64,000 nucleotides of DNA from Geobacillus subterraneus. GTDB lineage: Bacteria > Bacillota > Bacilli > Bacillales > Anoxybacillaceae. Numbering within the stretch: the first letter of the stretch is position 1; each line of letters opens with the position of its first letter. Of the stretch, positions 8,413-9,805 are shown piece by piece. The notes under the pieces were generated by a model. It had not been told where the DNA came from. It saw nothing but the letters and a program-made list of their open reading frames with translations, and did no database searches. Where the stretch lies: assembly GCF_001618685.1 (NCBI RefSeq), contig NZ_CP014342.1:1426001-1490000 (forward strand). Direction: 5' to 3'. A program made the translations under genes and the position numbers.

Positions 8413-9381
8413 ATGAAAGGTCGAATGAAGTGGGTGTCGTTAGTCGTATTGCTGTTTAGTTTTTCGTTGCTGTTTGGTTGTAACAAACAACAAGAAACAG
8501 CCCAATCGGGAGACAAATCGGGAAAAATCGTCATTGGCGCAGCCCTTCCGGATTTTGATGACAAATGGCTAAGTTACTTGCAAGACGGAATGAAAGAGTA
8601 TGCCAAAACGCAAAAAGATGTAGAAGTCATTTACGTCGATGCGATGAATGACGCAAACAAGCAATTGTCTCAAGTGGAAAACTTCATTCAGCAAAAAGTC
8701 GATGCGATTGTCATTATCCCTGTTGACACTGTTTCGGCTCCGCAGATGGTTGAGAAGGCTAATCAGGCTAACATTCCGATCGTTGTTGTCAACCGTATCT
8801 TTGATGGGGTAGACAAAGCGACCGCTTACGTCGGTTCAGAGTCAATCAAATCCGGCATTATGCAAATGGAAGAAGTAGCAAAAATGTTAGGCGGTAAAGG
8901 AAACATTGCCATTATGAACGGCCAAATGGGGCATGAAGCGCAGATCAAACGGACCGAAGGAAACAAGCAAGTGATCAAAAAATATCCGGGGATGAAAGTC
9001 GTCCTTGAAGGAACGGCCGAGTGGGATCGCGCCAAAGGAATGTCGTTGATGGAAAACTGGCTGCAATCTGGTAAGAAAATCGATGCCGTTGTAGCGAACA
9101 ACGATGAAATGGCGATTGGTGCAATTATGGCTCTTGAGGCTGCCGGAAAGTTAAACGACGTTATTGTAGCGGGAATTGACGCGACACCAGATGCCCTTGA
9201 ATACGTGAAGCAAGGGAAATTGAAAGTGACCGTCTTCCAAAATGCCAAAGGACAAGGGCAAGGCGGACTAGAAGTGGCCATTAAAGCCGCAAAAGGGGAA
9301 AAAGTTGAGAAGTTTAACTGGATTCCGTATGAACTCGTCACGAAAGATAATGTTGATGAGTATGTCAAAAAGTGGCAATGA
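8413..9381 (+). CDS. Sugar ABC transporter substrate-binding lipoprotein, probably for inositol
   Basis: A 322-residue periplasmic-binding protein of the ribose/inositol (Peripla_BP_4) type. The N-terminal signal peptide ends in lipobox LLFGC with the lipidated cysteine at residue 23, followed by a charged linker. The mature domain starts near IVIGAALPDFDDKW. It includes VDAIVIIPVDTVSAPQMV, IPIVVVNR, and the hinge region VVANNDEMAIGAIMAL and VAGIDATPD. It closes operon 1, while the matching ATPase and permease start operon 2. Both operons carry the same operators, so the three parts should be co-induced. Inositol specificity is inferred from context. The 3' UTR is interrupted by the element at 9395-9642. 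Confidence 0.88.
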   Translation: MKGRMKWVSLVVLLFSFSLLFGCNKQQETAQSGDKSGKIVIGAALPDFDDKWLSYLQDGMKEYAKTQKDVEVIYVDAMNDANKQLSQVENFIQQKVDAIVIIPVDTVSAPQMVEKANQANIPIVVVNRIFDGVDKATAYVGSESIKSGIMQMEEVAKMLGGKGNIAIMNGQMGHEAQIKRTEGNKQVIKKYPGMKVVLEGTAEWDRAKGMSLMENWLQSGKKIDAVVANNDEMAIGAIMALEAAGKLNDVIVAGIDATPDALEYVKQGKLKVTVFQNAKGQGQGGLEVAIKAAKGEKVEKFNWIPYELVTKDNVDEYVKKWQ

Positions 9382-9394
9382 TGTCCCGTTTTAA

Positions 9395-9642
9395 CGTAAT
9401 TTCCTAAAGAAGTCTCCCGCCTCAAGGAACGTGAAGGGCACAGACCAGTGAGTAGGCGGGAGATGAATTTCGGTTGGCAATCGCCAACGAAAACGAATAG
9501 GATCGTCTATGGTTAGAACAGACACCTTCAGAACGAAGGGGAGCGTAAAGGGTTCTTGTGTGTGGCTTACCGTTCGGCGAACACGCACAAGTCGCTTGAA
9601 GCCCCCCGCCTCTAAGCGAAGCGTAGGTGGTGGGGAGTTCAC
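9395..9642 (+). ncRNA. Orphan omega-RNA/right-end remnant of an IS605 (TnpB) element
   Basis: Five consecutive stems are visible: 9413-9422 with 9454-9463 (10 bp), 9473-9478 with 9483-9488, 9525-9529 with 9535-9539, 9555-9564 with 9582-9591 (10 bp with one G-U), and 9602-9611 with 9625-9634. The last is a C-run/G-run hairpin followed by GGAGTTCAC, the usual look of an IS605 right end, where the RNA scaffold of a TnpB nuclease ends and its guide begins. No tnpA or tnpB is present. TTTAA at 9390-9394, just upstream, could be the target motif; the guide would start near 9643. The identification is from recalled right-end patterns. Confidence 0.6.
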
Positions 9643-9697
9643 TGCTACTCGGCTGTAAAGGGTATTGTCCAAAAGGTGGCTTACGGCAATCTTGCAG

Positions 9698-9743
9698 ATG
9701 TCCCAAAAGTGTTTGTATAACGTTCACTTTTGGGACATTTTTT
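9698..9743 (+). terminator. Terminator of iol operon 1, displaced from its gene
   Basis: A perfect 14-bp stem, ATGTCCCAAAAGTG (9698-9711) with its complement (9725-9738), is followed by six T. It lies 316 bp after the binding-protein stop, with the IS605-like remnant in between. Confidence 0.92.
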
Positions 9744-9805
9744 AGCGGTGAAATGAATGGGAATAACAGTTTCCGTTTGTTATCCCTCTTTATGAGTGAA
9801 TTAGG

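Follow-up and report, generated by a model that had tools for sequence, protein, structure and literature searches.

The stretch from position 9395 to 9642 on the plus strand of the window (64,000 nucleotides of Geobacillus subterraneus DNA, positions 1426001-1490000 of a complete 3.47-Mb genome) is very probably a complete nonautonomous mini-element of the IS200/IS605 family, of the type known as palindrome-associated transposable elements (PATEs), that was moved in trans, carries an orphan omega-RNA-like scaffold, and is now most likely inert or nearly so. Its identification as a whole mini-element of 248 bp is based on a repeat family, on a boundary rule taken from other copies, and on ends that are common to elements encoding TnpA and TnpB. 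The first-pass annotation had called this copy, named here the iol copy after the iol genes nearby, an orphan right end. The descent from IS605 that it implied is retained, and since a left end is present too, "right end" is too narrow a description.

Boundaries, ends, and mobility of the mini-element

The joined flanks of ten copies of the element were searched for empty sites across the genus, for which 14 genomes were compared, and candidates were found for five copies. Among the 17 candidate alignments, 9 have an intact TTTAA with the right flank immediately after it, 3 (L198, L202, and L207) have a changed target base and an identical junction, 1 (L196) is ambiguous, and 4 (L201, L206, L215, and L216) are too diverged. 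In these empty sites TTTAA stays to the left, and the element begins with C and ends with TTCAC. This boundary rule places the insertion target of the iol copy, which is also the TAM position, at 9390-9394 (plus strand) and the element at 9395-9642, the extent first annotated, exact to the base. TTTAA lies to the left of 63 of the 70 delimited copies and is missing in 7. The alignments indicate that insertion in this family takes place 3' of TTTAA and leaves no target duplication, and from the five other copies we infer the same for the iol copy, for which no empty counterpart site was found among the genus genomes; in G005 and G009 the intergenic regions could not be aligned.

The stacked hairpins, the hairpin formed by a C run and a G run, and the terminal GTTCAC are present where they had been reported. 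By folding of the window, a left-end hairpin spans 9412-9464 and a second hairpin 9468-9492, and the C-run/G-run hairpin at 9602-9636 is the terminal (right-end) hairpin, all on the plus strand. Positions 9395-9660 fold better than dinucleotide shuffles (z of -2.51), with 3 of 200 shuffles as good. Over 100 bp, the left end has 86% identity to the corresponding end of an element in G008 that bears TnpA; the Y1 (TnpA) frame of that element carries a stop. Both L088 (1,776 bp) and L097 are complete IS605 elements that encode a Y1 TnpA and a TnpB, and Pfam confirmed Y1_Tnp and OrfB_IS605. Gaps apart, the window copy agrees with L088 at 58 of 70 left-end and 42 of 43 right-end positions, so that the comparison with IS605 ends suggested earlier came out in favor of kinship; another mini-element, L036, agrees with L088 at 67 of 69 and 43 of 43 positions, respectively. 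Folds and end comparisons show that the subterminal palindromes of the mini-element are common to TnpA-encoding elements. On plasmid pBM19, the right end adjoins an annotated IS200/IS605 tnpA gene, whose product is 93% identical to the TnpA of L088, and a left end and tnpB remnants are also present.

As the first reading had stated, there is no tnpA or tnpB gene inside or adjoining 9395-9642, and the element, at just 248 bp, has no transposase gene of its own. The near-identical ends of L036 and L088 suggest that the mini-element was mobilized in trans by the Y1 TnpA of an element sharing its ends. A Y1 transposase was not detected in the same genome by the Pfam model, which has matches in 11 of the 14 genus genomes, nor by a protein search with the TnpA of L088, for which there was no separate positive control. 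The iol copy is probably immobile now. G003 is the only one of the 14 genomes with the element at the identical site, and it differs from the window at 3 of 321 bases, all within the element (3/248). The gene stretch before the element is 100% identical after rounding, yet holds at least two differences, and the element copy is at least as divergent as its neighbor gene. The iol copy is old in this genome, and it would have inserted 3' of TTTAA in an ancestor shared with G003.

PATEs were described in Haloquadratum walsbyi (PMC3119063), and a PATE-like element of about 271 nt in Halanaerobium hydrogeniformans combines sequence from the left end, the final 58 nt of tnpB, and the right end (PMC7290912). 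As far as these descriptions were compared, PATEs and the mini-element are alike in being too short for a transposase, in lacking terminal inverted repeats and target duplication, and in having near-terminal palindromes related to IS605, with mobilization in trans known or suspected. Unlike PATEs as described there, the mini-element has an interior that is a conserved, covarying RNA over several genera and a core that differs from that of TnpB elements with the same ends. Guide RNAs are not discussed in the parts of these two PATE descriptions that were compared.

Repeat family and genomic placement

Positions 9380-9700 have 15 matches in the same genome, 9 of full length (the window copy included) and 6 partial, and the other 8 full-length copies are 76 to 88% identical to the window copy over 236 to 259 bp. 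All 14 genus genomes contain matches, from 2 to 33 per genome. The 72 matches collected gave 70 delimited elements of 220 to 248 bp, the secondary partial matches L138b and L035b being left out, and 61 of the 70 have GTTCAC as the right end. Beyond the genus, a longer RNA model (R1) matched 30 of 41 genomes of the family in all 9 genera; in two of these genera the matches are or resemble TnpB elements with the common terminal hairpin (L184, L188, and L190), and alignments place the RNA core itself in seven genera. A model of the RNA core (R2) matched at least 12 of 397 genomes of the order, including 3 outside the family (E values of 2e-11, 5e-5, and 0.003), in a search that scored the best 11 candidates per genome and may miss weak ones. 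A scan of a species collection with a 19-base pattern yielded 14 stretches, 4 of them strong by the model and with Parageobacillus among the matches, and a scan of viral contigs yielded 4 stretches.

Several relatives are worth recording in their own right. The Geobacillus phage phiOH2 carries a full, unannotated copy of the mini-element (L273:4001-4233). The 2.8-Mb genome G006 holds 26 mini-element matches, many of them near-identical (e.g., L127 to L130, L134, and L136 to L138), and a Y1 transposase was not detected in it; the element may have spread there recently and its mobilizer been lost later. In the genome of the window, L012, L014, and L015 (near position 1500) are elements of about 55 to 60 bp that consist of TTTTAAC, one hairpin, and GTTCAC. 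L010 and L028 (near position 1500) are gene-less elements of about 350 to 380 bp with the common left end and a different RNA-like interior.

The iol copy begins 13 bases behind the stop codon (9379-9381) of a gene at 8413-9381 (plus strand) that encodes a sugar-binding lipoprotein (Peripla_BP_4 by Pfam). Nearby iolD and iolE genes score above the NCBIfam cutoffs, which makes inositol a likely substrate of the binding protein. Downstream, an inverted repeat at 9698-9745 (plus strand) forms a terminator-like hairpin followed by a T run, which the scan missed because its loop is longer than the scan allows. The element thus separates the gene from its terminator-like hairpin, as had been claimed, and this position, together with the strong folding of the element, would be in keeping with hairpins that stabilize or tune the 3' end of the binding-protein mRNA without any guide function. 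Such a purely cis-acting role appears improbable, since the position recurs throughout the family. Among 64 site entries, which are not fully independent (orthologous pairs such as L019/L031 and L009/L162 are included) and in which genes are simple open reading frames, 59 are intergenic; 40 of the 59 lie behind a same-strand gene, unlike the remaining 19. The TAA of TTTAA itself serves as the stop codon in 11 entries, or in 10 when the ortholog pair L019/L031 is allowed for. Frequent placement behind same-strand genes is expected if insertion there is simply tolerated, and neither the iol copy nor its place appears unusual for the family. The presence of the element at this site in G003 alone among the 14 genomes and the conservation of the core far beyond this gene also argue against the cis-acting role.

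Structure and conservation of the RNA scaffold

The right-hand part of the mini-element, 118 nt at 9525-9642 (plus strand), is a conserved RNA with structure and is proposed to be an omega-RNA-like scaffold with the guide position starting at 9643, as first suggested, on the basis of covariation in 26 sequences and of an order of parts like that of the ISDra2 omega RNA. Stem 1 (9525-9539) pairs 9525-9529 with 9535-9539 and is supported by covariation and sequence. Stem 2 (9541-9545 with 9593-9597) encloses stem 3 (9555-9564 with 9582-9591), so that the two occupy 9541-9597, and both are supported by covariation. In a candidate pseudoknot, GAAC at 9531-9534 in the loop region of stem 1 can pair with GTTC at 9637-9640; all of these parts are on the plus strand.

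The model of four stems and three further crossing helices was tested on the 26 sequences. It pairs in 90.2% of cells, versus 35 to 46% when slid, and has 29 double-change cells versus 13.4 ± 3.1 in shuffles, with 0 of 500 shuffles as high. The covariation score is 0.179 versus 0.149 ± 0.006 (0 of 500 shuffles). The number of pairs with double changes (13 versus 10.2 ± 2.3; 77 of 500) and the number of pair types (50 versus 47.8; 126 of 500) are not above shuffles. An 87-nt core has 16 double-change cells versus 6.5 ± 2.2 (0 of 500) in 7 pairs versus 4.7 (59 of 500), and the whole element has 30 double-change cells versus 15.9 ± 3.2 in 13 pairs versus 11.0. The candidate pseudoknot pairs in 95.1% of cells, versus at most 51.9% when slid, but is not beyond shuffles on its own, and the conservation of GTTC may serve transposition. 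The stems are well supported by this modeling and the crossing helices are likely at best, because the structure was drawn from one sequence and relatedness inflates some of the measures. The structure alignments A1 and A2 comprised 28 rows less than 95% identical, from 70; alignment A3 comprised 27 of 29 cores (L009 and L160 dropped) and alignment A4 comprised 26 of 29 (L033, L160, and L187 dropped), with L162 left out of both. A wobble-pair strand test gave 221 G-U versus 80 A-C pairs, and 95 versus 77 over 64 mostly Watson-Crick pairs; because it is biased by pairs fixed as G-U, it was not used as evidence.

At gathering scores, Rfam gave no match in the whole window and, in 13 relatives, just an FMN riboswitch beside L236. 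Positions 9300-9800 searched to an E value of 10 gave six chance-level matches, with no omega RNA among them. An RNA of the IscB type (HEARO) was rejected because it had no Rfam match. The 116-nt scaffold of ISDra2 is described as having stems 1, 2, 3, and 4 and a pseudoknot between UUC before the guide and GAA of the stem-1 region (PMC10097598). By that description, the mini-element is alike in length (118 nt), in the order of stems, in stem 4, and in a potential UUC-GAA pairing that is followed by the guide; it differs in that no tnpB gene overlaps the scaffold, the loop of stem 1 has 5 nt, and the pseudoknot is putative.

It is also conceivable, and in our estimate rather unlikely, that the core is a small RNA in its own right rather than an omega RNA, and was taken up between IS605 ends. 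Such an origin would account for a core that is not common to TnpB elements with the same ends, and some far loci have, by eye, no recognizable ends. At five other loci (L232, L236, L243, L244, and L250), inspection by eye, without statistics, finds TATAAT a few bases upstream of the core (immediately ahead of position 1501, read in RNA orientation), a position that would suit a promoter of the core itself. The order of stems, the terminal hairpin, and the GTTC before a variable flank, all of which follow the ISDra2 plan, speak for the omega-RNA-like reading instead, and no known Rfam family matches. In the iol copy, a weak promoter-like site (9474-9503; TTGGCA-18-TAGGAT, a 9/12 match) overlaps the second hairpin, and sites of this 9/12 class number 3 in 1,051 bp versus 1.4 expected. 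Transcription of the RNA would either continue into it from the upstream gene or start at a weak promoter within the element.

TnpB partners, guide target, and a possible role in trans

Stand-alone omega RNAs, which are gene-less guide-RNA loci, exist in IscB systems and embody the same idea as the mini-element. A protein partner encoded elsewhere is conceivable here, since the search for TnpB copies that had been proposed found 32 matches to PF07282 (TnpB-like genes) in the same genome. No TnpB gene is joined to any of the 70 delimited copies, so in none of them does the RNA lie at a tnpB 3' end together with the right end, the arrangement taken to define an omega RNA. When eight TnpB queries were compared with 82 matching loci with 1.5- to 2-kb flanks, they matched just L029 and L034, where the TnpB gene is apart from the element and on the opposite strand. 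The core model R2 gave chance-level scores at eight TnpB loci of the same genome (best E values of 1.3 and 1.9) and nothing convincing at L088, L097, L184, and L188. The longer model R1 matches the 3' RNA of L088, L095, L097, L184, and L188 through the common terminal hairpin, and the L088-type omega RNA is without the RNA core of the mini-elements and has the terminal hairpin alone in common with them. No TnpB joined to the core was found among the loci examined with TnpB proteins.

Two TnpB-like groups were noted in the course of these searches. A 420-amino-acid TnpB-like family in the genome of the window (L051 to L072, e.g., L054:553-1812) has 22 near-identical members among 30 loci, with 16 of full length, in a genome without a detectable Y1 transposase. 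In an alignment of five proteins, this family and L047 have glycine where the others have the RuvC-II glutamate, so the family may lack nuclease activity or carry a rearranged site. In Bacillus phage phiNIT1, orf374 (L274:3320-4444), annotated as hypothetical, is 80% identical over 387 amino acids to the TnpB of L044; it lies behind pghP, and an IS605-type left end stands just before it.

IS605-family elements of Geobacillus use a TTTAA TAM, which is the same motif as the insertion target of the mini-element. From the boundary, the 16-nt guide position, which is flanking host sequence, is 9643-9658 (plus strand), and the canonical target form is TTTAA-TGCTACTCGGCTGTAA; there is no TTTAA-adjacent copy elsewhere in the genome. 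TTTAA followed by 6 guide bases (TTTAA+TGCTAC) has no site in the 3.47-Mb genome (control, 2), and an 18-mer of TTTAA and 13 guide bases, allowed up to three mismatches, matches in this genome the locus itself only (control, 2), with TTCAC in place of TTTAA in that lone match. With a TTTAA TAM, the RNA would have no canonical target other than the empty donor site, in keeping with retention of the element and not with regulation. The regulatory role that the first-pass annotation had considered conceivable finds no support: the search for the guide beside TTTAA returned the locus alone, the place of the element is usual for the family, and the core is not convincing at the eight TnpB loci.

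The closest regulatory precedent is TldR, for which guides of 6 nt can act and a locus with a broken tldR gene has been suggested as a possible supplier of guide RNA in trans (PMC13418256). In the part of that work compared here, guide RNAs of the TnpB family are in regulatory use, and the possible trans supply from a broken-protein locus resembles the situation of the mini-element; unlike the TldR guide RNAs, which come with a protein gene linked to them and with a target, the mini-element is without a linked protein and without a TTTAA-adjacent target. With TTTAA as the TAM, no host target lies beside the TAM as in TldR systems. That a TnpB or a nuclease-dead relative from elsewhere uses the guide at 9643 to cut or repress a target seems very improbable, even with the 32 PF07282 matches, the omega-RNA-like plan and its conservation, and the TldR example in its favor; the absence of any TTTAA-plus-6-nt seed site, the 18-mer search that returned the locus alone at up to three mismatches, and the lack of a convincing core beside the eight TnpB loci weigh against it. 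Also conceivable are a partner with a different TAM and an RNA that acts without a guide target.

With no Y1 transposase detected and no other TTTAA target, the iol copy is most probably a relic, inert or nearly so, of a PATE-type mini-element. Its RNA would be a guide-RNA scaffold of the TnpB type and, given a TnpB that accepts it, would have the empty donor site as its one canonical target, an arrangement that would favor retention of the element. For the family as a whole, we put forward, as a tentative and on balance doubtful proposal, that it is a gene-less IS605 family whose scaffold is under selection across about nine genera and which draws in trans on TnpA as well as TnpB. In this proposal it would be a parasite of a parasite, and its RNA would direct an unlinked TnpB to the empty donor site of the element itself and thereby secure retention. 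Every insertion supplies a guide of natural origin, and the target of that guide, the empty site, is known, which makes the question directly testable. Should the RNA prove to act in trans, retention guided by TnpB would also apply to elements that have no gene for a transposase or a nuclease, and many of the small repeats left unannotated in Geobacillus and in phage phiOH2 would turn out to be guide-RNA loci.
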